64,000 nucleotides of DNA, taken from the NCBI GenBank assembly GCA_009784935.1, contig WQXI01000004.1, forward strand, positions 62,001 through 126,000. Direction: 5' to 3'. Source of the DNA: Treponema sp. Its GTDB lineage: Bacteria; Spirochaetota; Spirochaetia; Treponematales; Breznakiellaceae. A program made the position numbers and the translations under genes. A model generated the notes under the pieces. The model did no database searches and had not been told where the DNA came from. It worked only from the letters and a program-made list of their open reading frames with translations. Below are positions 11,360 through 50,056 of this stretch, in pieces (the first letter of the stretch is position 1; the number at the start of each line of letters is the position of its first letter).

Positions 11360-11401
11360 CTCACACGGAGGAAGATTTAACCACAGAGTTACACAGAGTG
11401 T
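11360..11401. repeat. CACAGAG-type dispersed repeat copy (intergenic)
   Basis: Two half-units, tcacacggaggaag and accacagagttacacagag, lie in direct orientation between the cyclase promoter and the 3' end of the beta-helix lipoprotein gene. They belong to the family also seen at 13993, 14333, 31147, 33665, 45501, 46801 and 49702. No opposing arm is present here. Confidence 0.7.
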
Positions 11402-11416
11402 AAGAGACAATTATTG

Positions 11417-13321
11417 TTACTGTTTTTCGTAAATGGGTACATATGTACCTGTATCAGCAGGTACAGTATGTTGTTGTGTAATAGTTCTTGCTAGATGCAA
11501 TGTTAATGGTGGTTCTCTATTAGCAGATAATGCAATAAAACCTAGATTTGTATTATTGTAAAGATCGCCACTACCTCCAAGAAATCCTTTATCGCCACTA
11601 AAAACATAGCCATTTGGATGACTGCCGCTATAAACAGCACTACTACTTCTAGCTGGCGTCCATTGCAAATTTGTATAAGAAACACCGTCACCATCCTGAT
11701 CAACCATAGATAAACTTGTAATATTAATTGTGATTGTATAAGGTTGAAAAATACCTGTTGTTTTCCTCCACGTACCAAAAAAATCCGACGGCAGACAGTC
11801 AACAATTGTTACAGTCACTGTATTAAAAATACTATCCGTTACTGCTGATACAGCTGTTATGGTTACCAGTTTGCCATGATCAGCAGGCGCAACATTTAAT
11901 ATTCCATCATTTATTGTTGTTGCTGCGTTAAGAACCGTTCCGCTGATACTCCAAGTTACTTCCTGATTAGGATTATTTGCACCTTGTACAGTTGCAGTAA
12001 AGGCTGCGCCGCTTCCGTAAAAAGTTCCGCCATTTACAGTTTCTGCAGTACCATTGTTAGTTGCAGGTAAATTTATATTTAAACCTGTGTATGTCGCTGC
12101 AGGCTCATCCCAGCCGCCGGCAGTGCCTTGTGTAATAGTTGTCATGTTTTGATTTGTGTCTGCCGTGTTTGTTCTTGTTTTTGGTTCTGTACTTGCATGA
12201 TATGCTGCATGGCCATTGCCACTGCTTGCAGTGTTTGCGTTAGCGCCGCCGTTTTGGCCATATATAGTTCCGCCGCCAGTTTTAGTAAAAATTCCTGCTC
12301 CTAATATATACACGCCGCCGCCGCTAATTACCGCAGTATTTCCGTTTATTATACCGCCTGACATATTAAAGGTTCCGCTATTGAATACACCGCCGCCGTT
12401 AGTTGTTGTTGAATTTCCGTTAATTGTACCGCCTGTCATACTAAAAGTTCCGCCAATACAAGATAAACCGCCGCCGCTCGGCGCAGTGTTGCCGTTTATA
12501 GTTCCACCGGACATATTAAATGTTCCATTAAAAACATCTACACCACCGCTTGAATTATTTGAACTATTTCCGCTAATTGTTCCTCCTGACATATTAAAGG
12601 TTCCGCCATTATTGACAGCAACACCGCCGCCGGAATTACTCGAAGCATTCCCGGTAATTACTGCTGTACCTTCCATGTTTAATGTGCCTTGAATATTAAC
12701 TGTTACTACTGCATTTGTATTGCCGGTTCTTCCTCGCAATGTTACGCCATTACTCAATGTAAGATTAATATTACTATTCAAAGTGAAAAGGCTTCCATTA
12801 GCAGAAAGCAATACTGTTACATTACTGCTTCGAGCTCTAAGAGTAATATCCTTACCCGGTGCATTACTTGCAGTAAATGGTGACGGCGCAAGAGATTGAT
12901 CTGTTGCTATTTCTATCAAGTAAGCTCCTGCTCCGCTAATATTAACAAATCCAAGCGCGTCATATAAATTATCAAATCCAATTTCCGGCTCGCTATTAAA
13001 CCTAACAAAAACTGTATTTGAGCTTATCCCAGAGTTCGCCCAATCAGCATACAGTGTCATACTTGAGTCAGGAGCAATGTCAAAGTTCCATTCTTCACCG
13101 TCTTTATCAAGCCAGCTGACAAATACAAAACTTGCTCTTGCAGGGTTTGCAGGTTTTGTTATTCTGTCGCCTCTCAACAAAACTTGATTAGAAACAGAAC
13201 TGCCTCCGCCTGTGTCAAAATTTATTATTCTTAAATCTAAGATTTGCTCCATCCATAAATTGGGACAACTTACAATAAAAAGCGAAAAAATAATAATTAT
13301 AAAAAAGATTTTTTTCTTCAT
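11417..13321 (-). CDS. Beta-helix surface lipoprotein with InlB-type B-repeat
   Basis: This 634-residue protein carries a lipoprotein signal (lipobox FIVSC, Cys19). Next comes an InlB/Listeria-Bacteroides-type repeat (about 30-92; LLRGDRITKPANPAR and MTLYADW). A right-handed beta-helix of Gly-Asn repeats follows (about 190-370; repeated NMSGGTISGN and NMSGGTINGN units), then Ig-like and C-terminal beta domains. Such proteins are exported adhesins or surface structures. The first 92 residues are nearly the same as in the lipoprotein at 16495-18852, after which the two differ. TATCAT lies 6 bases before the ATG. It is probably outer-membrane anchored; the ligand is unknown. Confidence 0.82.
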   Translation of the reverse strand: MKKKIFFIIIIFSLFIVSCPNLWMEQILDLRIINFDTGGGSSVSNQVLLRGDRITKPANPARASFVFVSWLDKDGEEWNFDIAPDSSMTLYADWANSGISSNTVFVRFNSEPEIGFDNLYDALGFVNISGAGAYLIEIATDQSLAPSPFTASNAPGKDITLRARSSNVTVLLSANGSLFTLNSNINLTLSNGVTLRGRTGNTNAVVTVNIQGTLNMEGTAVITGNASSNSGGGVAVNNGGTFNMSGGTISGNSSNNSSGGVDVFNGTFNMSGGTINGNTAPSGGGLSCIGGTFSMTGGTINGNSTTTNGGGVFNSGTFNMSGGIINGNTAVISGGGVYILGAGIFTKTGGGTIYGQNGGANANTASSGNGHAAYHASTEPKTRTNTADTNQNMTTITQGTAGGWDEPAATYTGLNINLPATNNGTAETVNGGTFYGSGAAFTATVQGANNPNQEVTWSISGTVLNAATTINDGILNVAPADHGKLVTITAVSAVTDSIFNTVTVTIVDCLPSDFFGTWRKTTGIFQPYTITINITSLSMVDQDGDGVSYTNLQWTPARSSSAVYSGSHPNGYVFSGDKGFLGGSGDLYNNTNLGFIALSANREPPLTLHLARTITQQHTVPADTGTYVPIYEKQ

Positions 13322-13345
13322 TCTTCTATGATATACAGGAACCTT

Positions 13346-13936
13346 TTACTCCGGCGTAAAAAAACTAATAGCGTCAAATGTAATGATGGTTCTGTTTTTA
13401 AAATAGTTAAGTGAATCTAAAGGATCATATATCATATTAACATTTGCATCGCCTTCTAAAAAATGATAGTTAGAAGTAGAAACCGACCCTACCCTAATAA
13501 ATGATGCCTGTGTGCCCGCAGGTATATTGTTTCTGCCGGGAGACGCTGTAACACGCCTGATAAGCTGCGCTCTCTCACTGCTCTCGAGGAGTTCGAGCCC
13601 AATATTAATTACATCTTCCAGCGCATTATTTGACCCTTGAGTCTGCCCGTCTGATCTTCGGATAGTCACCCACCAATTTCTGTTTGTCGTACTGCCGTAA
13701 TACATCTCTCTTGCTTTAATTAATTGTTCCATCGTGAGGTTTTGTCCGACCCTGGTCTCCGCGATACCCAGCAGCACCCTAAATGCGCATGCGCCGTCAT
13801 TATTATTAAATGCTTCCCGCATTGATATTCTTTCATTTAGAACTGTAGAAATTACTGTCCCGTCTTCATTTCCGTATAAAGAAAATGAAAGGGCAAAAAT
13901 TACTATACCCGCTGTTAAAATTTTCTTTATCTTCAT
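13346..13936 (-). CDS. Small exported protein of unknown function
   Basis: I do not recognise the family. The 196-residue product starts with a signal peptide (MKIKKILTAGIVIFALSFSL, likely cleaved after LYG). A region with NWWVTIRR and many Asn/Arg residues follows, then a C-terminal part containing SNYHFLEGDANVNMIYDPL. The start at 13936 is preferred because it begins the signal peptide and lies 7 bases after a good promoter; the longer frame to 13972 would begin with TTG inside that promoter's -35 box. It precedes the beta-helix lipoprotein gene by 24 bases and may be co-transcribed with it. Confidence 0.68.
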   Translation of the reverse strand: MKIKKILTAGIVIFALSFSLYGNEDGTVISTVLNERISMREAFNNNDGACAFRVLLGIAETRVGQNLTMEQLIKAREMYYGSTTNRNWWVTIRRSDGQTQGSNNALEDVINIGLELLESSERAQLIRRVTASPGRNNIPAGTQASFIRVGSVSTSNYHFLEGDANVNMIYDPLDSLNYFKNRTIITFDAISFFTPE

Positions 13937-13943
13937 ACTGATA

Positions 13944-13972
13944 ATAGTATCAGGAATTCCTAAAAATATCAA
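13944..13972 (-). promoter_or_regulatory. Promoter inside direct-repeat copy 1
   Basis: Minus strand: TTGATA (13972-13967), a 17-base spacer containing the perfect palindrome CAGGAATTCCTG in part, and TACTAT (13949-13944), 7 bases before the ATG at 13936. The -35 and spacer are identical to those of the second repeat copy at 14284-14312. Confidence 0.7.
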
Positions 13973-14033
13973 GGATGAATTTGAGCGTTTTTCTCACACA
14001 GAGGCACAGGGAAAAGAAGGGAACACGGAGGAA
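13948..14033. repeat. 86-bp direct repeat, copy 1
   Basis: This stretch is nearly identical to 14288-14373 (same length, only a few differences, such as tttgagcg versus ttttggcg). It contains a palindrome (CAGGAATTCCT), the -35 box TTGATA read on the minus strand, and a CACACAGAGGCACAGGG dispersed-repeat half-unit. The two copies flank the 62-codon gene. Confidence 0.9.
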
Positions 14034-14088
14034 AATAGAAGAAGGTCTACTGCTCTGAGTCTCCCTTATCCAGTAATTCCAGAAATAT

Positions 14089-14277
14089 CTAGCTTTTTGT
14101 TCTGATTATTTTAACAATATGTCTTTGTAATGGTTGTTCAACATCGTATTTCTTACTCAACGAAACTACTTCACAAGTCAACGGCCAAACCATCGACATC
14201 CGTTCTTCTGCGGTACCTTCAACATAACCGGAATTTCTCTTATCTGTTTTATTAATAACAGTAATAGTCTTATCCAT
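14089..14277 (-). CDS. Small protein, possibly toxin-antitoxin associated, 62 aa
   Basis: This short product contains the segment ERMSMVWPLTCEVVSLSKKY, followed by a basic end (QRHIVKIIRTKS). Small proteins with a VWPLT-like segment often sit beside nucleotidyltransferase or toxin-antitoxin genes. That is recalled, not checked, and the function is unknown. A good promoter (TTGATA-N17-TATAGT) ends 6 bases before the ATG and supports expression. The gene sits between the two copies of an 86-bp direct repeat and next to the HigBA module. Confidence 0.6.
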   Translation of the reverse strand: MDKTITVINKTDKRNSGYVEGTAEERMSMVWPLTCEVVSLSKKYDVEQPLQRHIVKIIRTKS

Positions 14278-14283
14278 TGATTA

Positions 14284-14312
14284 ACTATATCAGGAATTCC
14301 TAAAAATATCAA
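14284..14312 (-). promoter_or_regulatory. Promoter inside direct-repeat copy 2
   Basis: Minus strand: TTGATA (14312-14307), 17-base spacer tttttaggaattcctga, and TATAGT (14289-14284), 6 bases before the ATG at 14277. Five or six consensus positions match in each box and the spacer is ideal. No Shine-Dalgarno fits, so the mRNA would be leaderless. Confidence 0.72.
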
Positions 14313-14373
14313 GGATGAATTTTGGCGTTTTTCTCACACAGAGGCACAGGGAAAAGAAGGGAACACAGAGGAA
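14288..14373. repeat. 86-bp direct repeat, copy 2, with extended CACAGAGG tail
   Basis: Second copy of the repeat at 13948-14033. It continues to about 14431 with further units of the dispersed family (cttacgcagaagcgcaaag and cacacagagg). The stretch 14278-14447 contains no gene. Confidence 0.9.
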
Positions 14374-14447
14374 GAAAGTCCGCAGATTTTCGCGGAAAAG
14401 CTTACGCAGAAGCGCAAAGCACACAGAGGAAAAAGAAATGCAGATTA

Positions 14448-14801
14448 CTAGTGAGGTTTACGGGTTGATTTCTTGTTTTTCCTTACAGTATAAACCGCTT
14501 TTTTTTCTGCAACTTCACTATAAGGGATAATCTCATTAAACAGGTATTCTTTTTTTTCTAACTCAAATTCAAGATCATAATAGTTTTGAAGATTAAGCCA
14601 AAATTGAGCCGAATTCCCAAAATACCTAGAAAAGCGTAATGCCATATCTACTGTTATTCTGCGGCTGCCCTTTAGAATCTGACTAACAGCTGTCTGCTGT
14701 ACCTTAATTTCTTTGCTTAATTTATACGCAGAAATTCCCATAGGTTTTAAGAATTCTTCTTCAAGAATTGTTCCAGGTTTTATTAAAGCCAGTTTTTTCA
14801 T
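14448..14801 (-). CDS. higA: HigA-family antitoxin (helix-turn-helix)
   Basis: The 117-residue protein fits the HigA/VapI-like addiction-module antidote family. It has KPGTILEEEFLKPMGIS near the N-terminus and a helix-turn-helix (SAYKLSKEIKVQQTAVSQIL). The conserved segment RRITVDMALRFSRYFG-NSAQFWLNLQ follows. It would neutralise HigB and repress its own promoter through the helix-turn-helix. It follows the toxin gene by 12 bases, in the toxin-first order typical of higBA. The C-terminal tail is basic (VRKNKKSTRKPH). Confidence 0.93.
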   Translation of the reverse strand: MKKLALIKPGTILEEEFLKPMGISAYKLSKEIKVQQTAVSQILKGSRRITVDMALRFSRYFGNSAQFWLNLQNYYDLEFELEKKEYLFNEIIPYSEVAEKKAVYTVRKNKKSTRKPH

Positions 14802-14813
14802 AATTGCATTCTC

Positions 14814-15095
14814 CTAATGATAGTCAATAACAGTTACATCTGTTGCGTTGCTGTCTTTCCATTTAAAAGTAATTCTCCATTGGTCATTTATGCGGATACT
14901 ACAAAGACCTTTTTTATCCCCTTTTAATTTTTCAAAGCGGTTACCAGGAGGTATACGAAGATCATTTTCATCTGTTGCTGCATGAATAATAAGCAATTTA
15001 CTTCTGCCTCGTTGATGAAGCTCAGGAGGGAGACTCTTAATCTTCTCCCGTCTAAATAGTGCTTCGGTATCTTTGTTTCCAAAACTCTGTATCAT
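14814..15095 (-). CDS. higB: HigB-family mRNA interferase toxin (RelE/ParE fold)
   Basis: The 93-residue protein is of typical HigB length and sequence. It begins MIQSFGNKDTEALFRRE, with LPPELHQRGRSKLLIIHAA in the middle and RFEKLKGDKKGLCSIRIND followed by WRITFKW near the end. HigB toxins cut mRNA on the ribosome. It is the first gene of the module; an AAGGAAAG Shine-Dalgarno lies 7 bases before the ATG. A decayed piece that looks like part of a second higB lies at about 15380-15417. Confidence 0.93.
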   Translation of the reverse strand: MIQSFGNKDTEALFRREKIKSLPPELHQRGRSKLLIIHAATDENDLRIPPGNRFEKLKGDKKGLCSIRINDQWRITFKWKDSNATDVTVIDYH

Positions 15096-15115
15096 GTGAA
15101 TACTTTCCTTATATA

Positions 15116-15144
15116 ATACTATTGTATTACAATAGTATTGTCAA
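15116..15144 (-). promoter_or_regulatory. higBA promoter with embedded palindromic operator
   Basis: Minus strand: TTGACA (15144-15139), a 17-base spacer, and TAGTAT (15121-15116). A perfect inverted repeat, ATACTATTGT-N3-ACAATAGTAT (15116-15138), fills the spacer and the -10. It is the obvious binding site for HigA autorepression. Confidence 0.85.
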
Positions 15145-15182
15145 GAGATATTATATTGAAATTTTTCACACAAAGAACCTAA

Positions 15183-15370
15183 GGCGCTGTGTGGTTCTGC
15201 GCTGGATTGCTAAAATATCTTGAAAAACGCAAAACGCTGCCGCAGGCTATGTATGCTGCTGCCCAGAAAAACTCAGGAGGAATTCGTCTACGAGCCTCTT
15301 ACTTCGTTCGGTCTCTTCGACGGTGAATTCCTGAAGATGTTTTTCTGTTCAGCCCATACCTAGCCTGTTG
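15183..15370. repeat. 188-bp direct repeat, copy 1, with internal long inverted repeat
   Basis: It is about 97% identical to 16288-16476. Inside it, arms 15244-15288 and 15319-15366 are imperfect inverted repeats (ggctatgtatg...cagaaaaac against their complement) that could fold into a hairpin of about 120 bases. Most of the gene-free stretch 15096-15441 consists of the higBA promoter, this repeat and a higB-like remnant. Confidence 0.9.
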
Positions 15371-15379
15371 TTAATATTC

Positions 15380-15417
15380 TACATTTAATTTTACAAAGCG
15401 GTTGCGGGGAGGTATAC
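15380..15417 (-). pseudogene. Remnant resembling the middle of higB
   Basis: Read on the minus strand this stretch encodes SIPPRNRFVKLN, matching RIPPGNRFEKLK of the intact HigB. The DNA also aligns (caaagcggtt...ggaggtatac at 14933-14955). No start or full domain remains. It is evidence that a second HigB-type gene was once here or was rearranged. Confidence 0.55.
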
Positions 15418-15441
15418 TCGGTAAGCCTTTTTTCGCAATAC

Positions 15442-15831
15442 CTACATACATTTAATTATCCCCAATACAAATTCCTGAACTTCTCTTGCATATTTTAAGG
15501 CTATTTTCATATCATCACTAGTAATTTCAAGCTCATTTGGGTAACGTGGTATTACCGCATAATTGGTTAAAACAATCAATTTTGATGATAGTACAGAAAA
15601 AGTATTGTTAATTCTTATGCACATTTCTAAGAGTTCTTCTAAATCATGGATTTTGGGCGGTTCAATATTATTTAAATATAAAAAACCTTTTAAATACTTC
15701 TCTGCAGATTGCTGACAATGAAAACAAATTACTTCATCTGGCGTGGGATGATGCATGGTAGAAAGGTATTCTGCCGACCTTAAATCATCATTGGCTTTAT
15801 CAAGCCACTGTTGCAGTAAATCTTTATCCAT
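15442..15831 (-). CDS. HEPN-domain protein (toxin of an MNT/HEPN pair)
   Basis: This 129-residue all-helical protein has the HEPN family hallmarks: WLDKANDDLRSAEYL at the N-terminus, CFHCQQSAEKYLKGFL in the middle, and the NYAVIPRYPNE motif near residue 90 that matches the R-x-P part of the family. HEPN proteins paired with minimal nucleotidyltransferases act as RNase-type toxins. It overlaps the nucleotidyltransferase gene by 8 bases and is translated after it. The strict HepT RxxxxHxY motif is not seen; the family match is to the broader HEPN group, so the mechanism is uncertain. Confidence 0.88.
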   Translation of the reverse strand: MDKDLLQQWLDKANDDLRSAEYLSTMHHPTPDEVICFHCQQSAEKYLKGFLYLNNIEPPKIHDLEELLEMCIRINNTFSVLSSKLIVLTNYAVIPRYPNELEITSDDMKIALKYAREVQEFVLGIIKCM

Positions 15832-16156
15832 AAAGTTTTATGCCCTCCCTTTCAATCTTTCGTTCTAATGTCGCATGCTTCTTTCTAAAAATAAATCTAT
15901 TGTTTTTTAGCCCGATGATATCCATCGGCATTTTTTTAACAGGTTTAATTGCTTTACGAATCTCAATAATTGCTTCGAGTACTCTTATCTGTAAGTTATC
16001 ACTAAATACAATATATAAATCTAAATCAGAATTCTTATGCGGAGCGCCGTACGCATATGAACCAAAAAGATAAATTGCTTCTACAGGGACAGTATTCGTG
16101 ATTATTTTTGTAATTTCATCAAGTTCTCGCTTTATCTCAGAAATATCATTTTTCAT
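15824..16156 (-). CDS. Minimal nucleotidyltransferase (MNT), partner of HEPN
   Basis: The 110-residue protein has the GSX10DXD active site (LFGSYAYGAPHKNSDLDL) with a third Asp in MPMDIIG. This is a complete minimal nucleotidyltransferase of the MNT/MntA type. Such enzymes can AMPylate their HEPN partner and so silence it. It starts with an AGGGA Shine-Dalgarno, lies first in the two-gene operon and overlaps HEPN by 8 bases. The pair is flanked by two near-identical 188-bp direct repeats. Confidence 0.9.
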   Translation of the reverse strand: MKNDISEIKRELDEITKIITNTVPVEAIYLFGSYAYGAPHKNSDLDLYIVFSDNLQIRVLEAIIEIRKAIKPVKKMPMDIIGLKNNRFIFRKKHATLERKIEREGIKLYG

Positions 16157-16224: not shown

Positions 16225-16287
16225 TAAAAAGTCATCTGTCAATAGGCTTTATTCCCGAAATCCCTCACGCAGAGGCACAGAACTTAC

Positions 16288-16476
16288 GGCGCTGTGTGGT
16301 TCTGTGCCGGATTGCTAAAATATCTTGAAAAGCGTAAAACGCTGCCGCAAGGCTATGTATGCTGCTGCCCAGAAAAACTCAGGAGGAATCCGTCTACGAG
16401 CCTCTTACTTCGTTCGGTCTCTTCGACGGTGAATTCCTGAAGATGTTTTTCTGTTCAGCCCATACCTAGCCTGTTG
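16288..16476. repeat. 188-bp direct repeat, copy 2
   Basis: Near-identical partner of 15183-15370, in the same orientation, with the same internal inverted repeat. It occupies most of the gene-free stretch 16157-16494, preceded by a CACGCAGAGGCACAG unit at 16264. The two copies bracket the MNT/HEPN pair. Confidence 0.9.
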
Positions 16477-16494
16477 AAAATTTTCTACTTGTGT

Positions 16495-26033: not shown

Positions 26034-26396
26034 TTATATCACTACAGGAGCGGGTTTAGGCGCGGCTGGTTTCTTCGCAGCTGGTTTTCTTTTTGCTGCG
26101 GGTTTTTTTGCCGCTGTTTTCTTTGCACCGGTTTTTTTCTTGGTGGTTTTCTTTGCGCCAGTTTTTTTCTTTGCGCCAGCTTTTTTAGCACCAGTTTTCT
26201 TTACGCCGGTTTTTTTCTTGGCGCCGACTTTCTTAGCACCGGTTTTCTTTGCACCGGTTTTTTTCTTTGCGCCAACTTTCTTGGTGGTTTTCTTAGCGCC
26301 TGTTTTTTTCTTTGCGCCAACTTTCTTCGCACCAGTCTTCTTCTTTGCAGCGGTTTTCTTCTTCGCTGCTGGTTTTTTTGCAGATGTTACTGCCAT
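26034..26396 (-). CDS. Possible nested histone-H1-like protein inside the ppdK tail (120 aa)
   Basis: Met917 of the ppdK product (ATG at 26396) begins MAVTSAKKPAAKKKTAAKK and is preceded by AAGGGGG eight bases upstream, a very good Shine-Dalgarno in an otherwise coding context. Translation from here would give a 120-residue, highly basic protein of Lys-Ala-Gly-Thr repeats like bacterial histone H1 homologues. Whether it is made is unknown. The alternative is that the G-rich stretch simply encodes GKGDKK. Confidence 0.35.
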   Translation of the reverse strand: MAVTSAKKPAAKKKTAAKKKTGAKKVGAKKKTGAKKTTKKVGAKKKTGAKKTGAKKVGAKKKTGVKKTGAKKAGAKKKTGAKKTTKKKTGAKKTAAKKPAAKRKPAAKKPAAPKPAPVVI

Positions 26397-29208: not shown

Positions 29209-31824
29209 ATGAAAAATATTTTAAACTATATTGATCTTCCTGTCTATAGAAATCAAGAAAAAATTTTATTAATGTTAAAAGAAAATCAAGCTCTCGTTGT
29301 AGAAAGTCCTACAGGTTCAGGAAAAACAACTCAACTGCCGGTAATTTTGCATGAAGCAGGCTATGCTGGAAGCTGCGCTGCGGAGTCATCAAGCGGAATC
29401 ATCGGAGTAACTCAGCCAAGACGCATTGCAGCCGTTTCTGTGAGCGAATTTATCGCGCGTCAGTGCAATACTTCTATTCCGGGAGTGATTGGATACAAGA
29501 TGAGATTCGCAGATCGCACCAATCATGAAACAAAAATTAAAATAATGACCGACGGAATACTGCTTCAGGAGATGAAATTAGATCCATGGTTGTCAAAATA
29601 CAGCGTTTTAGTCGTTGATGAAGCGCATGAACGCAGTTTAAACATTGATTTTATCCTTGGATTGCTTAAAAGAGTGCTGGAAAGCCGCAGAGATTTTAAA
29701 GTAATCATATCTTCTGCGACAATAAATGCAGAAGTTTTCTCCGAATACTTTAATAATTGCCCGATTGTTAAGATAGAAGCGCAGCGTTTTCCTGTTACGA
29801 TGGTGTATGACGCCCCTCTTATCTCTGCAAACAGCGACGCTTCTGAAGCAATCCTAACAAAAATCGAAGCAATAACTACACGATTTATCGATGAAAAGAG
29901 AGAAGGAGACATATTAATCTTTCTTTCCGGCGAAAAAATGATAAAAGAGTGCATGAATCGGCTTACATTCTGTTCTGTAGGAAAAAATTTACATCTCGTT
30001 CCGCTGTACGGCAGATTAGGAAAAGAAGAACAGGAAAAAGTCTTTGAAAAAGCTCCAAACGGCAAAACAAAAGCGGTAATTTCAACAAATATCGCAGAAA
30101 CTTCCGTTACAATTGACGGAATTACAGCAGTAATTGATTCGGGACTTGCAAAATTAAACTGGTATAATCCGCGCACATTCACTTCTAGTCTGATAGAATC
30201 GCCGATTTCCATTGCATCAGCGAATCAGCGCAAGGGAAGAGCCGGAAGAACGCGCGAAGGAACTTGCTACAGACTGTATTCGCGCAAAGATTTTGAACAA
30301 AGATCGCTTTATACAACCGAAGAAATCTTTAGAACAGACTTATCCGAAGTAATTTTGCGCATGGCAGACCTTGGAATAACCAACTTTGAAGATTTTGATT
30401 TCATTGCAGCGCCGGAAAGAGAAGGACTTCTCGGCGGAATCGAAACATTAAAACTGCTTAATGCGCTGGAAAACGATCGAAGTTTATCAAATATAGGCAA
30501 ATTAATGACAGAATTTCCTCTTGCGCCTCGTCAATCGCGCATTATTGTCGAAGCAATAATGCAATATCCAGATGTAATCCGCGAAACAATCATTGCCGCG
30601 GCATTTTTATCGACGCAGAGCCCTTATATACTGCCTCCGGGAGAAGAAACAGACGCAAGACAAGCTCATCATCGTTTCCGCGATGACTTTGGCGACTTTG
30701 TTTCGTATTTAAAACTATTTAAATCCTATAATGATTCGACAAATAAAGTAAATTTCTGCGAAAAAAATTATCTCGATGAGCGCGCGATGTCAGAAATTGT
30801 AAATGTTACCGCTCAATTAGAAGAAATTCTTGCTTCTATGAAAATTCCTGTGCATTACCGCTCTCAACCGTTAACAATCGAAGAAATTGACGATTATTTA
30901 TGCTGTATCGGGCGCGGAAATATTCAATTTGTCTGCACAAGAGAAGGACGCGGTAAAATGGGTTCATATCGAAGCTTAACAGCAGATAAAATCATAATTC
31001 ATCCCGGATCTGTAATGTTCCGTGTCGATCCGCAGTATATTGTCGCCGGAGAAATTGTTAGAACATCAAGAATGTACGCAATGTCGGTTTCTCCGCTTTC
31101 AAAAAATGTTTTAAACCGGCTTGGATTGGGAAGTCATCAAGAATTTATCACACAGAGGCACAGAGGCACAGAGGACACAGAGGAAAGAAAAGAGAAAAGA
31201 GATGGAAGAAACAAGAGAGAAAGCAAGAGAGAGAGAGATTTTACTAATAATATTAAGATTTGCGGCGAAGTGTTCGAGATTACTACTGTCAAAGGAAAGA
31301 AAACTGTTCTATTACCGTGGGAAAATCTTGAACGTATCCGGGAAAAAATTTCCGGTGATATTATGTACAAAGGCATAAAAGGAAAAATTACTTTAAAAAA
31401 ACGCGGATCAAATGCCGAATTTAACCTTCTTGCAGGAGAAAAATTGAATCTTATTCTTTCTTTAACGCCGACTCTCGACGCGCAAGGCGCTTTTTCCCGC
31501 GCGTGGCCACGTAAAGAAAATTTTAACTCAGAGGATAATTTTGGCGCGCTGCTAAAACATCTGGACAGCCTTGTAAAACCAGTAATATGGAAGAAAAACT
31601 CAAAAGATTTAGGATTTCTCGGACTTTTTACTGATGGAGAGGGAAATTACTGGTTTAGAGCTTCGCGGGGCTTTCATACAGCATTAAACGAAAGCCTTTC
31701 GAGCCTTGAGTCACTAATAGATGAATTTCAGCCAAAAACAGGAAATGAAAATACAAAAAATGAGGAAAAACACATTATAAACCAGTGCTACCGCAGATTG
31801 TCTGATTGTCTCGAAAAACTGTAA
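29209..31824 (+). CDS. hrpA: HrpA-type DEAH-box ATP-dependent RNA helicase with in-frame repeat insert
   Basis: The 871-residue protein has all DEAH helicase motifs: Walker A SPTGSGKTTQLP (near 35), QPRRIAAVS, DEAHERSLN (about 140), SSATI (about 168), ISTNIAETSVTI (about 295) and QRKGRAGRTREGTCYRLY (about 341). HA2 and OB-fold regions typical of HrpA/HrpB follow. Full HrpA is about 1300 residues and HrpB about 820; the length fits the shorter form, so the symbol is approximate. At about residues 644-685 a low-complexity segment (ITQRHRGTEDTEERKEKR) is encoded by a dispersed CACAGAGG repeat that does not break the frame. The enzyme likely acts on RNA or ribosome quality control. Confidence 0.9.
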   Translation: MKNILNYIDLPVYRNQEKILLMLKENQALVVESPTGSGKTTQLPVILHEAGYAGSCAAESSSGIIGVTQPRRIAAVSVSEFIARQCNTSIPGVIGYKMRFADRTNHETKIKIMTDGILLQEMKLDPWLSKYSVLVVDEAHERSLNIDFILGLLKRVLESRRDFKVIISSATINAEVFSEYFNNCPIVKIEAQRFPVTMVYDAPLISANSDASEAILTKIEAITTRFIDEKREGDILIFLSGEKMIKECMNRLTFCSVGKNLHLVPLYGRLGKEEQEKVFEKAPNGKTKAVISTNIAETSVTIDGITAVIDSGLAKLNWYNPRTFTSSLIESPISIASANQRKGRAGRTREGTCYRLYSRKDFEQRSLYTTEEIFRTDLSEVILRMADLGITNFEDFDFIAAPEREGLLGGIETLKLLNALENDRSLSNIGKLMTEFPLAPRQSRIIVEAIMQYPDVIRETIIAAAFLSTQSPYILPPGEETDARQAHHRFRDDFGDFVSYLKLFKSYNDSTNKVNFCEKNYLDERAMSEIVNVTAQLEEILASMKIPVHYRSQPLTIEEIDDYLCCIGRGNIQFVCTREGRGKMGSYRSLTADKIIIHPGSVMFRVDPQYIVAGEIVRTSRMYAMSVSPLSKNVLNRLGLGSHQEFITQRHRGTEDTEERKEKRDGRNKRESKRERDFTNNIKICGEVFEITTVKGKKTVLLPWENLERIREKISGDIMYKGIKGKITLKKRGSNAEFNLLAGEKLNLILSLTPTLDAQGAFSRAWPRKENFNSEDNFGALLKHLDSLVKPVIWKKNSKDLGFLGLFTDGEGNYWFRASRGFHTALNESLSSLESLIDEFQPKTGNENTKNEEKHIINQCYRRLSDCLEKL
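31147..31195 (+). repeat. CACAGAGG repeat inside hrpA
   Basis: Tandem units cacacagaggcacagagg, then cacagaggacacagagg, with a purine-rich extension to about 31240, all in frame with the helicase. This is one arm only; no opposing arm follows. Confidence 0.85.
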
Positions 31825-31877: not shown

Positions 31878-32462
31878 ATGTCAGAAAACAAAAAACTTGA
31901 TTTTATCGGCACCTTCAAAGAAGGTATCGGTATCGGACTCAAGAACATCGTTCCAATCATTGTCAATTTTATTTTATTCATCTTGACATGCTGGATCCCG
32001 CACTTTGGCGGCGGTGTTATTATCGGTTTCGTAGTTGGCGTTATGACTAAGGCCAGCAAAGGCGAAACAATCCCAATGACAGAAGTATTTGATGCAAAAT
32101 ACCGCAAGTTCATGGGCGAATACTTCCTTACAAACGGTTTAATGGCTGCAGGAGCAGCTATGGCGTTTACAAATGCGATTTCATTGGTTTATGCATGGCG
32201 CTTTGCTGCAGCAATCGCAGTTGATAAGGGAAAAGGCTCTTCAGAAGCTATCACACTTTCCAATCTTTCAACTTACGGCAGCAAATTTTTGATGTTTATC
32301 ATTGATGTTCTGGTATGTATCGTAATTGGTATTCTCGCAAGTATCTTTATGATGATTCCAGGTATTGGCTGGTTACTTTGTTTATTAGTCATTATCGTTT
32401 TCTGCTGTGTTTATACAGGTATAAACGCATCTATCTACAAACAGCTTACTTCTAACATCTAA
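31878..32462 (+). CDS. Polytopic membrane protein of unknown function, 194 aa
   Basis: I do not recognise the family with confidence. The protein has about four hydrophobic segments (around 20-45, 85-110, 135-160 and 165-185), with conserved-looking GIGIGLKNIVPIIVNFILF and PGIGWLLCLLVIIVFCC. The start at 31878 is set by an AGGAGG six bases upstream; the longer frame begins with TTG at 31860. It stands alone between hrpA and cysS and ends at a rho-independent terminator. Confidence 0.8.
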   Translation: MSENKKLDFIGTFKEGIGIGLKNIVPIIVNFILFILTCWIPHFGGGVIIGFVVGVMTKASKGETIPMTEVFDAKYRKFMGEYFLTNGLMAAGAAMAFTNAISLVYAWRFAAAIAVDKGKGSSEAITLSNLSTYGSKFLMFIIDVLVCIVIGILASIFMMIPGIGWLLCLLVIIVFCCVYTGINASIYKQLTSNI

Positions 32463-32520: not shown

Positions 32521-32593
32521 TCTTCTTAGCGTTCTCTGCGAACTTTGCGTCTTGGCGAGAGATATTCTATCTTTGCGTCTTGGCGAGAAGTCT
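32521..32593. repeat. Tandem GCGTCTTGGCGAGA repeat before cysS
   Basis: Two units of ctttgcgtcttggcgaga with spacers (32550-32563 and 32572-32589), preceded by tcttagcgttctctgcgaa. They resemble the GC-rich half of the same dispersed repeat family. The cysS -10 box (TATAAT, 32599-32604) lies directly downstream. Confidence 0.65.
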
Positions 32594-32615: not shown

Positions 32616-34079
32616 ATGGGATTTTCATTTTACAACACTTTAACCCGCCAAAAACAGCCGTTTAATCCAATTAACGAAAAAAAAGCTGGCTTTTACGGGT
32701 GCGGACCGACAGTTTATAACTATGCGCATATAGGAAACCTCCGCGCGTATGTTCATCACGATATTCTGGTTCGATCTTTGCGCCGCGCAGGCTACGATGT
32801 AAATCATGTAATGAATATTACCGATGTTGGTCATCTTTCTGATGATGCCGACGGCGGCGATGATAAAATGGTAAAATCTGCCGAAGAACGCGGAAAAAGC
32901 GTTTTAGAAATCGCCGATTTCTACACTCAAGCTTTTTTTAATGACACAGAAAGAATGAATATAACAAAACCAACAATCGTATGCAAAGCAACCGATCATA
33001 TAGCAGAAATGATCAATTTAATGAAAAGAATCGAAAAAAACGGCTTTACATACCTTGCTGGCGGCAATCTCTACTTTGATATATCAAAATTCCCGTCTTA
33101 CGGCGATCTTGCGCTTCTAAAACTAGACGATAAAAAAGCAGGCGCGCAGACAGAATTTGCACGGATCGAACATGACGAAAATAAACGCAATGCAGGCGAT
33201 TTTGTTCTCTGGTTTACAAAAAGCAAGTTTGAAAATCAAGCTCTTATGTGGGACAGTCCATGGGGAAGGGGTTATCCCGGCTGGCATATAGAATGTTCTG
33301 CGATGAGCATTAAATATCTAGGCGAACAATTTGATATTCATTGCGGCGGTATCGATCATATTCCGGTTCATCACACCAACGAAATCGCCCAGAGCGAAGC
33401 TGCGACAGGAAAAAAACCGTGGGTTAACTACTGGCTTCATAATGAATTCCTTGTATTGGATAAAGAAAAAATTTCAAAATCTTCGGGAAATTTTCTCACA
33501 TTGCAAAGTCTTGTAGACGAAGGCTTTGACCCGTTAGATTATCGTTATTTTCTTCTTGGCGGGCATTATCGCAGTCAGCTTCAGTTTTCTTTCGAAAGTC
33601 TGCAGGGCGCGAAAAATTCTCGAAAATCATTAATTGAGAAGGTAAAAAATTTATCAGAAAAAGCCTCACACAAAGACACAGAGGCGCAGAGGACACAGAG
33701 CGAAGAGGAAGAAAAAGAGGGAGAGATAGCCAAGTATATAGAAAGGTTTAATAACGCTATAGAAGACGACCTAAACACGCCGAGGGCGCTGGCAGAACTA
33801 TGGGGTCTTTTAAAGGAATGTCCTGCGACAGAAGAGACGCTGGCGGCTGTCTTCGACATGGATAAGGTATTAGGTCTTGGGCTTGAAGAAGCGGTTAAAA
33901 ATAGTAATACTATAGAAGATATTGAGTTTGCAGAAGAAATCGAAGCTCTAATCAAAAAAAGAGCAGAAGCCAAAAAAGCAAAAGACTTTGCGGCTGCCGA
34001 TAATATAAGACAAAACCTGAAAGATCGGGGTATAATACTAGAAGACGGACCTGCCGGGACTTCTTATAAACGTATGTAA
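32616..34079 (+). CDS. cysS: Cysteinyl-tRNA synthetase with in-frame repeat insert
   Basis: The 487-residue enzyme charges tRNA-Cys. Visible motifs are the HIGH-like AHIGN (about 39-43), the KMSKS-like KISKSSGN (about 284), and zinc ligands in CGPTVYNY, WHIECSAMS and HHTNEIAQSE. The C-terminal helical anticodon-side domain begins near DDLNTPRALAELW. Between the stem-contact helices a Glu/Lys-rich stretch of about 19 residues (SHKDTEAQRTQSEEEEKEGE, 350-368) is encoded by the dispersed CACAGAGG repeat and preserves the frame. A TATAAT lies 11 bases before the ATG, giving a short leader. The cognate tRNA-Cys gene is about 7 kb away at 41184. Confidence 0.95.
   Translation: MGFSFYNTLTRQKQPFNPINEKKAGFYGCGPTVYNYAHIGNLRAYVHHDILVRSLRRAGYDVNHVMNITDVGHLSDDADGGDDKMVKSAEERGKSVLEIADFYTQAFFNDTERMNITKPTIVCKATDHIAEMINLMKRIEKNGFTYLAGGNLYFDISKFPSYGDLALLKLDDKKAGAQTEFARIEHDENKRNAGDFVLWFTKSKFENQALMWDSPWGRGYPGWHIECSAMSIKYLGEQFDIHCGGIDHIPVHHTNEIAQSEAATGKKPWVNYWLHNEFLVLDKEKISKSSGNFLTLQSLVDEGFDPLDYRYFLLGGHYRSQLQFSFESLQGAKNSRKSLIEKVKNLSEKASHKDTEAQRTQSEEEEKEGEIAKYIERFNNAIEDDLNTPRALAELWGLLKECPATEETLAAVFDMDKVLGLGLEEAVKNSNTIEDIEFAEEIEALIKKRAEAKKAKDFAAADNIRQNLKDRGIILEDGPAGTSYKRM
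33665..33710 (+). repeat. CACAGAGG repeat inside cysS
   Basis: cctcacacaaagacacag, then aggcgcagaggacacagag, followed by a purine tract. It is one arm only and in frame. It is read in a different frame from the hrpA copy (SHKDTE versus TQRHRG). Confidence 0.85.
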
Positions 34080-45500: not shown

Positions 45501-45632
45501 GTTCACACGGAGGCACAAAGGCGCAAAGAACACAGAGGATATAAGAATGTTAAAGAAAGATATCTAGTCTTAACCTTTCTCCCCCTCCGTGATCTCTGTG
45601 CTCTCCGTGCCTTTGTGTGAACTTCTTCTCAT
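45501..45632. repeat. Full-length palindromic CACAGAGG element upstream of trpD
   Basis: Left arm gttcacacggaggcacaaagg, continuing to about 45538, pairs with a right arm (about 45592-45630) ending gcctttgtgtgaac. The two arms are imperfect complements with a loop of about 50 bases. It is the most complete copy in the window and lies in the 228-base gap between MATE and trpD. Confidence 0.88.
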
Positions 45633-45643
45633 ATCCCCCGAGG

Positions 45644-45672: not shown

Positions 45673-45678
45673 ACTACT

Positions 45679-46698
45679 ATGATTAAAGAAGCGATTATAC
45701 AGGCTGCTAAAAGAGAAAATCTCTCCTTTGAATGCGCCGAAGCTGTAATGAACGAAATTATGGAAGGCAAAGCAAGCGAAATCCAGATGGCAGCATACCT
45801 TGCCGCTATGTCAGTTAAAGGCGAAACAATCGACGAAATAACAGCGTCTGCTACCGGTATGCGCAAACATTGCACAAGAATACTGCACGACATTGACGCG
45901 CTGGAAATTGTCGGCACAGGCGGCGATCATTCAAATTCATTCAATATTTCTACTACTTCTGCGCTGGTAATATCCGCAGTTGGGATTCCGGTTGCTAAAC
46001 ACGGCAACAGGGCTTCATCATCAAGAACTGGTTCTGCTGATGTGCTCGAAGCGCTCGGTGTTGACATAACAATCAAGCCGGAGCACAGCCTTTATCTTTT
46101 AAAAAATATCAATATTTGTTTTCTCTTTGCGCAGAATTATCACATATCAATGAAGTATGTAGCTCCTGTCCGCCGAGAGCTTGGCATTCGTACAATTTTT
46201 AATATACTTGGTCCTCTGGTAAATCCGGCGGGCGCAAACATGGAACTTTTGGGCGTGTATGAACCCGAACTTATCGAACCTATGGCAAAAGTTCTTTGCA
46301 ACCTCGGCGTTAAAAGAGGCATGGTTGTTTACGGACACGACGGACTCGACGAGATTTCGCTTGGCGCGCCTACAACTGTCTGCGAACTTAGAGACGGGTT
46401 CATAAAAACCTATGATATCGAACCTGAGCAATTTGGATTTGACCGCTGTAAAAAAGAAGACCTTTTGGGCGGCACTCCTTTGGAAAACGCTGAGATAACA
46501 AAAAAAATTCTAAACGGCGAAAAAGGTCCGAGACGCAATGCGGTTTTGCTTAATTCCGCCGCAGCGATTCATATTGCCAAACCGGATATAAGCATAAAAG
46601 ACGCAGTTGCTGTTGCAGCCGAAGCGATCGATTCTGGAAAAGCAAATGAACAGTTAGAACGGTTTGCCGAATTATCGCAAAAGAAAGACTTGGTATGA
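45679..46698 (+). CDS. trpD: Anthranilate phosphoribosyltransferase TrpD
   Basis: The 339-residue enzyme transfers phosphoribosyl to anthranilate in tryptophan synthesis. The motifs GTGGDHSNSFNISTTSALV (about 78), KHGNRASSSRTGSADVLEALG (about 107) and GPLVNPAGANMELLGVYEPEL are intact. It is a stand-alone TrpD, not fused to TrpG. It overlaps trpC by 4 bases (ATGA). The start is preceded by a -10-like box and no Shine-Dalgarno. Confidence 0.95.
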   Translation: MIKEAIIQAAKRENLSFECAEAVMNEIMEGKASEIQMAAYLAAMSVKGETIDEITASATGMRKHCTRILHDIDALEIVGTGGDHSNSFNISTTSALVISAVGIPVAKHGNRASSSRTGSADVLEALGVDITIKPEHSLYLLKNINICFLFAQNYHISMKYVAPVRRELGIRTIFNILGPLVNPAGANMELLGVYEPELIEPMAKVLCNLGVKRGMVVYGHDGLDEISLGAPTTVCELRDGFIKTYDIEPEQFGFDRCKKEDLLGGTPLENAEITKKILNGEKGPRRNAVLLNSAAAIHIAKPDISIKDAVAVAAEAIDSGKANEQLERFAELSQKKDLV

Positions 46699-47558
46699 GA
46701 ACACCGCCTGCAATACTTGGTAAAATCGCAGAGAGCACACTGGCTCGCGTTGCCAAGGCGAAAGAGATACTTCCGCTCGAAAAACTACTTAAGAATTTAA
46801 AACCACAGAGGTCACAGAGTTTCACGGAGGAAGAAAAGACTTTTGAAGCAAAAACTCCGTGTTCCTCTGTGTACTCTGTGGTAAAAAATATTCTTCCTTT
46901 CGAGAGTGCGCTGGCTGCTCCCGGATTATCATTTATCTGCGAAGTAAAAAAAGCATCTCCTTCCAAAGGCATAATAGCAGAACATTTTCCTTGGCTGGAA
47001 ATCGCAAAAGAGTACGAAGAAGGCGGCGCTGCTGCAATTTCTGTTTTAACAGAACCAGAGTTTTTTTTAGGAAGCGATCAATACCTGCGCGAAATTTCTG
47101 CCGCAGTAGCGATCCCTGCGCTGAGAAAAGATTTTATAATTGATCCGTATCAGATCTACGAAGCAAAACTGTTGGGCGCAAGCGCAGTACTTTTAATCTG
47201 CGCTCTGTTAGAGCCGCAGACGCTTTCTGAATACATGAAACTCGCAAAAGAACTTTCGCTTGACTGCCTTGTAGAGATTCACAGCGAAGAAGAAGCAAAA
47301 GAAGCGGTCGGCGAAGGAGCAAAAATTATCGGCATTAACAACCGCGACCTTACTACATTTAAAGTTGACACAGAACTGACTTCCCGCCTTGTAAAAAAAA
47401 TCCCGGCAGAGATTCTAATCGTCGCAGAAAGCGGAATAAATAATGCAGATGACATCCGCGCTCTTAAAGAAATCGGCGCTGACGCTGTGTTAATAGGCGA
47501 AAGTTTAATGCGAGCAGCCAACAGGAAACAATTACTATCCGATTGGAAGCTTGCCTAA
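46695..47558 (+). CDS. trpC: Indole-3-glycerol-phosphate synthase TrpC with in-frame repeat insert
   Basis: The 287-residue protein is a beta/alpha-barrel with FICEVKKASPSKG, AISVLTEPEFFLGS, LRKDFIIDPYQIYEA, IGINNRDLTTF, VAESGI and DAVLIGESLM. It converts CdRP to indole-3-glycerol phosphate. Typical TrpC is about 260 residues. The extra length is a stretch of about 27 residues (36-63, KPQRSQSFTEEEKTFEAK then TPCSSVYSVV) encoded by a palindromic CACAGAGG element between the N-terminal helices and the first strand. The gene overlaps trpD by 4 bases and lacks an adjacent trpF. Confidence 0.95.
   Translation: MRTPPAILGKIAESTLARVAKAKEILPLEKLLKNLKPQRSQSFTEEEKTFEAKTPCSSVYSVVKNILPFESALAAPGLSFICEVKKASPSKGIIAEHFPWLEIAKEYEEGGAAAISVLTEPEFFLGSDQYLREISAAVAIPALRKDFIIDPYQIYEAKLLGASAVLLICALLEPQTLSEYMKLAKELSLDCLVEIHSEEEAKEAVGEGAKIIGINNRDLTTFKVDTELTSRLVKKIPAEILIVAESGINNADDIRALKEIGADAVLIGESLMRAANRKQLLSDWKLA
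46801..46882 (+). repeat. Palindromic CACAGAGG element inside trpC
   Basis: Left arm aaccacagaggtcacagag (46801-46830 with extension) and right arm ctccgtgttcctctgtgtac, ending at 46882, form an imperfect inverted repeat. It is 82 bases long and in frame. Confidence 0.9.
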
Positions 47559-47562
47559 CTCT

Positions 47563-49194
47563 TTATGAGAATCTCTGCGAAGAAACAATTTCTCTTGCTT
47601 TTTCAAGGAAGTCCATTGCGCTTTCTTCGGCAGTTTTCATTTCTTTTACTTCTTCTGTCAATTCTGCGGTAAGCCCTTCCAGCGTATTCATTTCTTTATA
47701 AATAAATTCGCCTCTTTGGTGAATCATTCCTGTTCCTTCCTGAACTTCTTTACTGGTCTTTTGCACTACTTCCAAAATATCCAGAACTTGAGTTCCGTCG
47801 GCAGCGTGAGCTTCGACAGCTTTGCTTACTTCACCAAACGAAGCGCCCATTTCTTTGATTCCGGAGAATATTTCGTCCATCGAATTTACAGTAGTCTGCG
47901 AAGCGCTGCTTATTTGAGCAATAACTTGTTCCATTTTTTGTATTTCTGCAGAAATAGCATCAGATTCTTTTGTAGAAAGCTCTGCAAGTTTTCTGACTTC
48001 TCCCGCTACAACAGCAAATCCTTTTCCAAGTTCGCCTGCATGAGCCGCTTCGATAGCCGCGTTCATAGCAAGAATATTTGTCTGACCAGCAATTCCTGCA
48101 ATCGTTTTATTTGCGTTCTGGAGAGCAACAGACTGCTCTTCGATCTGTTTAATATCTTCTGTCAGTCTTAACAGCATTCTATGTCCGGCTTCGGAAGAAT
48201 GCATAAGCGTATCAGCGGTTTTTCTTGTTTTTTGCGCAATCGAATGAACCGAATCAACATTAGAAACCATCAGCTCAATCGCTTTTGATGATTGCACAAT
48301 CGATTCTGCCTGCGTATGTACTTTTTTCTGGAACGAATCAACATGCATGTAAATTTCATGCGCCGAGCTTGACGCGCCGCGCATAGATTTCATTTGAGAC
48401 TGAACTTTTGCTTCCATCGCATTAATATGTATTCTGATTTTATCAATCTCATCAAAAGACTCAACAACAACTTCGTTAAGGCGTTTGTTTTTATCCAAAG
48501 TAACAGAAAGATGTTTTTGGTTTGTTTCTTCAACTTCGTTTCTGAGCGCTGTTTCGGATTCTATCATCGAATAAAAAAGCGTTAAACGGCGCTTAGCTGC
48601 AACGCCGGTAATTGTACTTGTAATAATTATACCAACCAGCCTAAAAGCTTCATAGAACAACGGGAAGCGAACAGGCACTTCTTCGCCTTCAAACATAAAT
48701 GTGTGAGGCAGATCAAGCACATCCCTGTTCATAATAATTACTATTAGATATGTGATAAACGCATAATAACCAGATAGATAAGCGCACCGCGGACTGTATC
48801 TGCATGCTCCCCCAACAATTAAAATCGAGTAGAACAACGCTCTAAATGAAAGAAAAGGAAGCGGCGGAGAAAGTACCGGGTAAGTACACCCAACCCAGAT
48901 GATGGCGCTTATAAGCGACATGTCCAAAAATGAACATATATATTTAAATGCGCCGGAGAGCCTTCCTGTCCTTCGCACATAAATAAAGAGATATATTGAA
49001 TAAAACAGCAAAACGCTGGTAACTATATGAGCGCGCCAAGGTATCCATTCATCACCGCCCAAGTACCTGATTACAGCAACACCCGACGTACTGACCGTAA
49101 AAATAATACCCATCAGCAGCCTGACATTGCTGATTACCTTTTCACCGCCATGTTCATCTATCCGAATTCTCTCTTTTATTTCGTTAATTGTCAT
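47563..49194 (-). CDS. Methyl-accepting chemotaxis protein with multi-span membrane sensor
   Basis: The 543-residue protein has about five or six membrane spans in the first 215 residues (for example [28 protein letters not shown] and [14 protein letters not shown]). A coiled cytoplasmic signalling domain follows with the conserved hairpin tip ([39 protein letters not shown]). It lacks a periplasmic ligand domain, so the sensor is likely within the membrane (for example light, redox or membrane state); this is inferred. The ATG at 49194 is 6 bases after GGAG. It runs opposite to and between trpC and trpF. Confidence 0.92.
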
Positions 49195-49333
49195 AATATT
49201 CTCCAAAAATCCCTAAAAATAGCTGATTCACCTATTATGTTAAATTATCGACAATTATTAAAGCCGAAATTATACTATTCTGCGATATTTTTGATACCTT
49301 TTATGAATACAGAAATTATGGTAAATTATACAA

Positions 49334-50056
49334 ATGAGAGTAAAAATATGCGGTTTATTTCGTGACGAAGACATAGATTTTGTGAACGAAGCCCGGCCGG
49401 ACTATGCGGGTTTTGTGTTTGCCAAAAGCCCAAGGCAGGTTTCCACAGCCCTCGCCCAATATCTGCGTTTTCGTATCGCTGACGGCATTGCTCCCGTGGG
49501 TGTATTTGTAAATGCTCCCATCGCAATGGTGACAGAGCTGTACCAAAACGGCATTATTTCTATTGCCCAGCTCCATGGCACCGAAGACGAAAGCTATATC
49601 ACCCAGCTAAAACGGCTGAGTGTGAGCGCAATCAGACAGACCAGAATCCCCGAGATAAAAGTGATAAAAACAATAAATTCGGAATTATTTGAAAAGAATA
49701 TGAAACCACAGAGGACACGGAGGAACACAGAGTTATTAAAACAAAAATCATCCTCTCTCCGTGAAACTCCAAGCAACTTTAGTTGCGGTACTCCGTGGTT
49801 AAATAATATTCCAAATAATGCGGATTATATTCTTCTAGATTCCGGTTCCGGCTCCGGCAAAACTTTTAATTGGGATATGCTTAAATCAATCAAATTCTCC
49901 AAACCCTGGTTTCTCGCAGGCGGAATAAATATCAAAAACATTAATCAAACAAAAGAACTTAACCCGTTCGCCATTGACGTCTCAAGCGGCGTAGAAACAG
50001 ACGGTGTTAAAGATCGCAAAAAAATACTGGACATTGTCGCAGCAGCAAGAGGATAA
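49334..50056 (+). CDS. trpF: Phosphoribosylanthranilate isomerase TrpF with in-frame repeat insert
   Basis: The 240-residue barrel enzyme has MRVKICGLFRDEDIDFVNEA at the start, the core AQLHGTEDESYITQL, and LLDSGSGSGKTFNWDML at the phosphate site. AGGINIKNI and AIDVSSGVETDGVKD follow near the end. It isomerises phosphoribosylanthranilate. Usual length is about 200-210; a 34-residue insertion (123-156, MKPQRTRRNTELLKQK to CGTPWLNN) comes from a palindromic CACAGAGG element placed between two barrel strands. TAAATT lies 6 bases before the ATG. It converges with the chemosensory genes. Confidence 0.94.
   Translation: MRVKICGLFRDEDIDFVNEARPDYAGFVFAKSPRQVSTALAQYLRFRIADGIAPVGVFVNAPIAMVTELYQNGIISIAQLHGTEDESYITQLKRLSVSAIRQTRIPEIKVIKTINSELFEKNMKPQRTRRNTELLKQKSSSLRETPSNFSCGTPWLNNIPNNADYILLDSGSGSGKTFNWDMLKSIKFSKPWFLAGGINIKNINQTKELNPFAIDVSSGVETDGVKDRKKILDIVAAARG
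49702..49802 (+). repeat. Palindromic CACAGAGG element inside trpF, with nested hairpin
   Basis: Left arm aaccacagaggacacggagg and right arm ending ggtactccgtggttaaa are inverted. The right arm itself is split by a second palindrome, AAGCAACTTTAGTTGCGG (49771-49788). The whole element is in frame. Confidence 0.88.

Follow-up and report, generated by a model that had tools for sequence, protein, structure and literature searches.

Dispersed palindromic repeats of a Treponema genome and their relation to the inverted arms of GxxExxY nuclease genes

Introduction

What are the short palindromic repeats that lie scattered over a 64,000-nt stretch of a Treponema sp. genome (GenBank assembly GCA_009784935.1, contig WQXI01000004.1, positions 62,001 to 126,000; this stretch is the window in the following), both between genes and in frame within conserved ones, and which machinery may have spread them? 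A first-pass annotation made from the DNA letters had described them as a dispersed, often palindromic family, had named the Rickettsia palindromic elements (RPEs) as the precedent and had regarded them as a separate example in spirochaetes. The precedent holds as far as behaviour is concerned, i.e. palindromes lie in frame in conserved genes. A family confined to spirochaetes was rejected, and the repeats are more than another RPE, as arms of similar units are found around genes for GxxExxY, a small protein of the PD-(D/E)XK type, in many phyla, and the repeat family thus gains a candidate mobilising protein. The first-pass interpretation is thereby supported in part. We consider it the likeliest explanation, albeit not a proven one, that the palindromes are gene-less copies of GxxExxY elements, similar to miniature inverted-repeat transposable elements (MITEs), together with broken single arms, and that the nuclease moves them.

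Results

A dispersed repeat family with several unit types

The repeats are real and form a dispersed family. In the window the unit CACAGAGG has 13 matches, compared with 0.59 expected, and none of 100 shuffles attains this number; paired units match 21 times, the mean over 30 block shuffles being 0.1 (maximum 1). A search of the whole genome to which the window belongs (2.37 Mb, 68 contigs, 94.6% complete) with a two-unit pattern and up to two mismatches gave 130 matches and three for the reversed control. The matches are spread genome-wide, and across the genus the load per genome ranges from none to hundreds. Paired CACGAAC units add a further type with 27 matches in the same genome. All sites listed in the first-pass annotation, from about 11360 to 49702, do hold units, and these fall into two subtypes. 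Subtype A starts with TCACAC, has a period of 8-9 and is found in hrpA, in cysS and at 45501, 13993 and 14333; subtype B, ACCACRGAG..CTCYGTGGT with a period of 10, is found in trpC and trpF, and both subtypes are present at 11360. In an Rfam scan of the window no family matched the repeats, a single tRNA being the sole match.

From the fetched stretches of this genome, which comprise the listed part of the genome search and the CACGAAC search, i.e. a portion of the genome, 40 two-armed palindromes of type B were collected. They end with ACCAC/GTGGT and have AT-rich flanks, with GAAT in 38 of the 80 flanks compared with 10.8% in shuffled flanks. Their alignment was left out of pair counts because the loops align poorly. 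The type B arms often contain a nested mini-hairpin, e.g. GCAACTnnAGTTGC. These mini-hairpins sit at one fixed spot of the arm and vary in their letters (GCAACTnnAGTTGC, GGCAACTGTAGTTGCC, GCTGTCCTGCGGACAGC and others) with the structure retained; examples are window positions 49774-49790 and the loci L022, L023, L029 and L353.

GxxExxY genes lie between inverted arms

A profile search found PF13366 matches in 16 of the 39 genomes of the genus and in 72 of 296 genomes of the phylum, and the GxxExxY genes of the genus set sit between inverted arms. The genome of the window has two such genes, whose arms are of type A and of type B, respectively, and both arm types also occur in the window. The gene-less palindromes share their terminal inverted repeats with these gene-bearing elements (A and B), the relation by which a MITE is recognised. 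For named genomes the best 80 of 543 confirmed relatives of one query were taken as loci. The inverted-repeat score reached at least the 99th percentile of 1753 random positions for 58 of 78 named loci (L117 and L155, which lack flank, were excluded), 14 of 16 genus loci and both viral loci. A strict rule, which demands at least two units on each side of the gene, was satisfied by 66 of 122 loci and by 2 of 1253 random positions (named 44/74, genus 12/16, phylum 10/30, viral 0/2); this count excludes L088, L115 and L144, whose matches were too weak for coordinates, and three named loci with less than 100 bp of flank, and the partial matches L072-L075 were excluded from both evaluations. The named loci with enough units number 53 and come from 13 phyla. 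L188, a locus of the phylum set, has a GxxExxY domain identical to that of L143, which stems from a Turneriella bin, and this places the genome of the window in Spirochaetota. The units vary among copies (CGCAAAG, CGCAGAG, CACCAAG, CACGAAG, CACGAAC, CACAGAT and others), and one genome may carry several GxxExxY genes. Behind the GxxExxY gene of locus L070 (1924-2412), several short palindromes that share its unit type follow one another in tandem.

In the fetched stretches, arms that face each other at a distance of 180-1600 bp gave 18 rows, five of which are GxxExxY or its deleted copy (see below). The other 13 enclose varied genes or stretches of 191-1368 bp, none of which recurs except for one site listed three times, and no other gene family was prominent among them, although no family scan was made of these rows. 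Two viral contigs carry GxxExxY, and one query against phage records gave no match; phage carriage was set aside on these results.

Arms, protein lineages and repeat load are matched

Arm and nuclease are associated, and the association is specific. On a protein tree of 83 rows, built by a quick method from few columns and with many open forks, arm letters 2, 5 and 7 require 13, 17 and 2 changes, respectively, compared with shuffled means of 27.9, 27.7 and 6.9, and none of 500 shuffles was as low; the seven rows whose units have C or T as the last letter fall into a single starred clade. Similarity of the proteins is also correlated with similarity of the arms over 1169 pairs whose members belong to different phyla (r 0.26, a value reached in none of 1000 permutations). 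As the correlation holds between phyla, shared host ancestry is not its cause.

The repeat load follows the resident nuclease as well. Of the 21 named genomes whose arms are of the CGCAAAG type, 14 contain at least six CGCAAAG pairs, compared with 5 of the 29 whose arms are of another type (p 3.5e-4); the 50 genomes searched were picked from the 80 to include most CGCAAAG-like arms (L113 excluded). In the genus, the summed repeat matches are higher in the 12 genomes with a full-length GxxExxY gene than in the 27 without (p 0.0012), and by type the association gives p 2.4e-4 for A, 9e-4 for C and 0.036 for D; these loads are counts of pattern matches, not of elements, with the GxxExxY arms included and with some overlap between patterns A and B. 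For this test the arm types were assigned by eye, as were the lists of genomes that have a full or a partial gene, G004 and G025 entering with partial genes.

A gene-bearing copy has lost part of its gene

The genome of the window contains a second copy of the type B element in which about 217 bp of the GxxExxY gene are deleted and which is 95-98% identical elsewhere. Eight bases of similar sequence lie at the junction. This internally deleted copy is a step towards a gene-less palindrome.

The full copy of this type B element, at locus L065 (1386-2190), lies inside the remnant of an Rpn/Transposase_31-type gene, i.e. a nuclease gene within a nuclease gene. The intact paralogue of this host gene, L352, scores 28.5 bits with Pfam (above the cut-off of 21) and 40.9 bits with NCBIfam (below the cut-off of 52.1).

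GxxExxY is a PD-(D/E)XK protein

The family assignment is clear, with TIGR04256 scores of 148.1, 142.2 and 133.6 bits (curated cut-off 35), and the Pfam cut-off of PF13366 is exceeded, too. The catalytic residues are conserved: all 61 sequences compared share E27, D67, E77-x-K79 and Q91, and both proteins of the window's genome have them. The structure predicted with a pLDDT of 94.9 has a PD-(D/E)XK fold. The best Foldseek match has an E value of 2.4e-3, and the best VIA match is 4ic1, a Cas4 (Z 9.5), followed by many near-ties. A sequence search of solved chains found no relative at E 1. A role as Holliday-junction resolvase is not claimed, as Hjc ranks eighth (Z 7.0) among these near-ties, and a defence system was dismissed, the PADLOC matches being weak only (best E 0.0012, Cas4).

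The full-text passages that our literature search covered, PMC8934634 among them and most subscription papers outside its scope, contain no account of a function of GxxExxY or of these arms; the passage on GxxExxY gives the name only. Among the matches listed for the DNA strings of the repeat units, none deals with bacterial repeats, and the translated unit peptides had no literature match.

In-frame inserts in conserved genes

The four genic inserts that had been proposed for trpC, trpF, cysS and hrpA are all in frame and were confirmed by comparison with orthologues drawn from as many as 30 members of the genus (17 for trpC, 18 for trpF, 25 for cysS, 26 for hrpA). Two of them are full palindromes, and those in hrpA and cysS turned out to be single arms. 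The genes gain different numbers of residues, namely about 28 in trpC, 33 in trpF and a smaller number in cysS.

In trpC (open reading frame (ORF) 46695-47558) a complete B-type palindrome at 46802-46882, translated as PQRSQSFTEEEK..SSVYSVV, folds with a DNA z score of -5.9. It has no counterpart in the 17 other orthologues, one of which is truncated there, and is thus unique to this genome. The complete B-type palindrome of trpF (ORF 49334-50056) at 49705-49799 contains the nested mini-hairpin AAGCAACTTTAGTTGC and has a z score of -3.1; none of the 18 other orthologues has a type B insert. At the same place G001 carries a palindrome of the CACGAAC type and G025 a long segment in which no repeat was detected. 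The A-type arm of cysS (33666-33701, plus strand, ORF 32616-34079; translated SHKDTEAQRTQS) forms no long hairpin (z -2.6) and sits in a linker of variable length. In this linker G006 and G026 have CGCAGAG/CGCAAAG-type arms, which differ from the type found here, so that, as in trpF, different repeat types occupy one site across genomes. Some orthologues, e.g. L249, L250 and L262, have an equally long cysS linker without a detected repeat; this is the observation that the first-pass annotation had named as speaking against its reading, and it applies in part to cysS. The A-type arm of hrpA (31148-31184, plus strand, ORF 29209-31824; translated TQRHRGTEDTEE), likewise without a hairpin (z -1.2), recurs in an altered form in G010, where the repeat was detected; G011, G006 and probably G022 share it in the protein sequence only. 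As several species share it, this insert is old. A second length-variable site of hrpA lies near residue 205, where the gene breaks up into two matches in many members of the genus (L288-L302); no repeat arrays were detected at this site.

Beyond these genes, 20 of the 116 distinct arrays in the fetched stretches lie inside open frames of at least 120 aa and 96 outside long frames. All ten repeat-bearing frames scanned beyond the window have Pfam matches, namely PrmC, HydF, an ABC exporter, a PP-loop protein, NeuB, a phosphoglucomutase (two inserts), MutL, a methyltransferase, an ATP-grasp ligase and a pyridine nucleotide-disulphide oxidoreductase. Stop-free frames were counted in 27, 20 and 32 of 80 type B palindrome readings, compared with 17-18% in shuffled palindromes, which makes survival in frame easier.

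Other repeat sites and features of the window

Among the sites of the first-pass annotation only one further two-armed palindrome exists, the complete intergenic A-type palindrome at 45501-45622 (z -6.2); like the palindromes of trpC and trpF, it is listed without a strand. Unit matches define an intergenic array at 11361-11408 (plus strand) that combines one A-type start, TCACACGGAGG, with a B-type left arm, AACCACAGAGTTACACAGAG. The single-arm A-type array at 13993-14038 (plus strand) is part of a 91-bp segment with a second copy (95%) at 14288-14378, and the single-arm A-type arrays at 14333-14432 (plus strand) comprise this second copy and units at 14407-14429. A gene for a HigA-family antitoxin (14448-14801) adjoins these arrays and the duplicated segment. 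Another unit type, CGCAAAG/CGCCAAG, forms intergenic arrays at 32527-32587 (minus strand) between an ORF ending at 32462 and cysS.

Repeats of other kinds are found as well. Near-identical direct repeats (91-97%) at 15171-15382 and 16276-16488, about 1.1 kb apart, flank a HEPN/nucleotidyltransferase gene pair (15442-16156), like a toxin-antitoxin cassette between direct repeats. Three 516-bp tandem repeats of about 71-73% identity occupy 62552-63883 and extend toward the end of the window, and degenerate lysine-rich short repeats (26058-26342) lie in the 3' part of a minus-strand ORF of 1037 aa.

Discussion

Based on the arms that palindromes and nuclease genes have in common, we infer that GxxExxY mobilises the repeats. 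The gene-bearing form, with a total length of mostly 430-600 bp, would consist of one GxxExxY gene (about 125 aa, PD-(D/E)XK) between two inverted arms, each arm being a short run of inward-pointing units of the form C-n-C-n-n-A-(G/C/T) with a period of 8-10 bp. Each nuclease lineage is paired with its own unit (CACAGAG, CGCAAAG, CACCAAG, CACGAAC, CACAGAT and others), a pattern that recognition of the arms by their own protein would produce. GxxExxY may bind and cut the arms and thereby move them, either through breakage and repair or in a step that resembles transposition; loss of the gene between the arms would yield short palindromes that could be copied in trans, and insertions that keep the frame may be tolerated in linkers, giving rise to the in-frame inserts.

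Several observations weigh against this mechanism. The piece that the deleted copy shares extends about 55 and 20 bp past the arms, and in the host gene of L065 564 bp were lost relative to the paralogue L352 and about 500 bp including the element are found in their place, i.e. a replacement. Taken together, replacement and sharing beyond the arms mean that this case is no proof of arm-to-arm movement. Neither a clean empty site nor a target duplication was seen in the flanks of the 40 type B palindromes and in the one paralogue comparison, and the eight plasmid records are too few and too diverse to help with empty sites. The strict unit rule fails for 56 of the 122 loci, including both viral loci and 20 of the 30 of the phylum set, and, compared with transposases, GxxExxY is a short protein that lacks a second domain. 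The match between load and nuclease has exceptions: the highest CGCAAAG count, 165, occurs in a genome classed as other (L098), and the type B load shows no association (p 0.26, two genomes). Moreover, some repeat-rich genomes have no PF13366 match, i.e. G023 (100% complete; 27 B and 117 A matches), G036, G001 and G019 (71% complete; 64 C matches), and the genome of the window has its 27 CACGAAC matches and no GxxExxY gene with such arms.

The repeat-rich genomes without GxxExxY, the deleted copy shared past its arms and the contrast between hundreds of repeat matches and few GxxExxY genes per genome would also suit a different explanation, in which GxxExxY is a guest that inserts into, or is kept in, palindromes spread by other machinery, so that the arms are landing sites rather than ends. 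The arm letters, however, track the protein lineage across phyla, and the repeat load tracks the arm type of the resident nuclease; we therefore regard a guest as unlikely. Matching to the arms would be needed for a purely homing guest, too, which brings this explanation close to the mobilising nuclease that we favour. The palindromes might instead be regulatory, terminator or nucleoid sites useful to the host, GxxExxY being a host nuclease regulated by them or acting at them. The 96 of 116 arrays outside long frames and the strong folding of the hairpins would fit, but a copy number that ranges from none to hundreds of matches within one genus, the insertion into conserved genes and the missing Rfam match make this quite improbable.

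We give about as little weight to a REP/REPIN system moved by a RAYT (Y1/HUH) transposase. Its layout (see also passages of PMC3116915 and PMC3733652) is the same, with dispersed palindromes, a gene between its own palindromes and matched types; the GTAG..CTAC signature, tried in the window with one exact spacing, gave 0 matches (0.33 expected), and the gene between the arms encodes a PD-(D/E)XK protein, though no search for RAYT was made in this genome. Least probable of all is an expansion of tandem units by slippage without any mobile element: the units are short and partly tandem, but the 40 type B palindromes have two inverted arms with fixed ends, the same grammar surrounds one gene family in 13 named phyla, and arms are commoner around GxxExxY than at random positions.

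If the mobilising nuclease is accepted, one may go further, and we do so tentatively: GxxExxY could represent an unrecognised class of minimal mobile element, composed of one small PD-(D/E)XK nuclease and inverted arms of tandem units, with arm words matched to the lineage and present in at least 13 named bacterial phyla. Its gene-less palindromes would be among the common dispersed repeats of bacteria and would have repeatedly written in-frame segments into core enzymes, and copying would be driven by the nuclease, via specific cutting and repair, unlike that of known transposases. A testable function is thus offered for a large family of orphan nucleases and a candidate origin for dispersed repeats from spirochaetes to cyanobacteria. 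As each nuclease lineage has its own arm word, a PD-(D/E)XK recognition code could be readable from sequence. Finally, the inserts constitute a second natural experiment, after Rickettsia, on palindromes that become protein segments, with differing types in the same linkers of sister species.

How does the family relate to known systems? In its behaviour it resembles both RPE and REPIN/RAYT, although it is not established as a member of either. RPEs are described in passages of PMC10969869 as palindromic dispersed repeats, in frame in unrelated conserved genes and mostly within genes, with several families per genome. Full in-frame palindromes (trpC and trpF; hrpA and cysS hold single arms) and several types per genome are found here as well. 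What sets the present family apart from RPEs is that the same arms enclose a partner nuclease gene, that many phyla are involved and that most arrays are outside long frames; the units and the encoded peptides look different, too. In a comparison at the level of peptides only, the four insert peptides matched no NCBIfam model at E 10. GxxExxY shares its predicted fold and its catalytic residues with Cas4, Hjc and other small PD-(D/E)XK nucleases, but its genomic setting differs and these provide no sequence relative among the solved chains.

In REPIN/RAYT systems (REPtrons; passages of PMC3116915 and PMC3733652) a gene is enclosed by its own hairpin repeats, and there are several repeat types, each of which has its own protein and co-evolves with it. 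The gene between its own repeats and the matched repeat types recur here, whereas the protein is of the PD-(D/E)XK type instead of a Y1 tyrosine transposase, several genes can be present per genome, and the arms are runs of 8-10 bp units instead of single 20-40 bp palindromes with a GTAG tag. From MITEs with a parent insertion sequence the family differs in that no target duplication was found, the parent gene is no known transposase and the arms are tandem units. What it has in common with them is that inverted-repeat copies without a gene exist beside a gene-bearing copy with the same ends, and that an internally deleted intermediate stands between the two.

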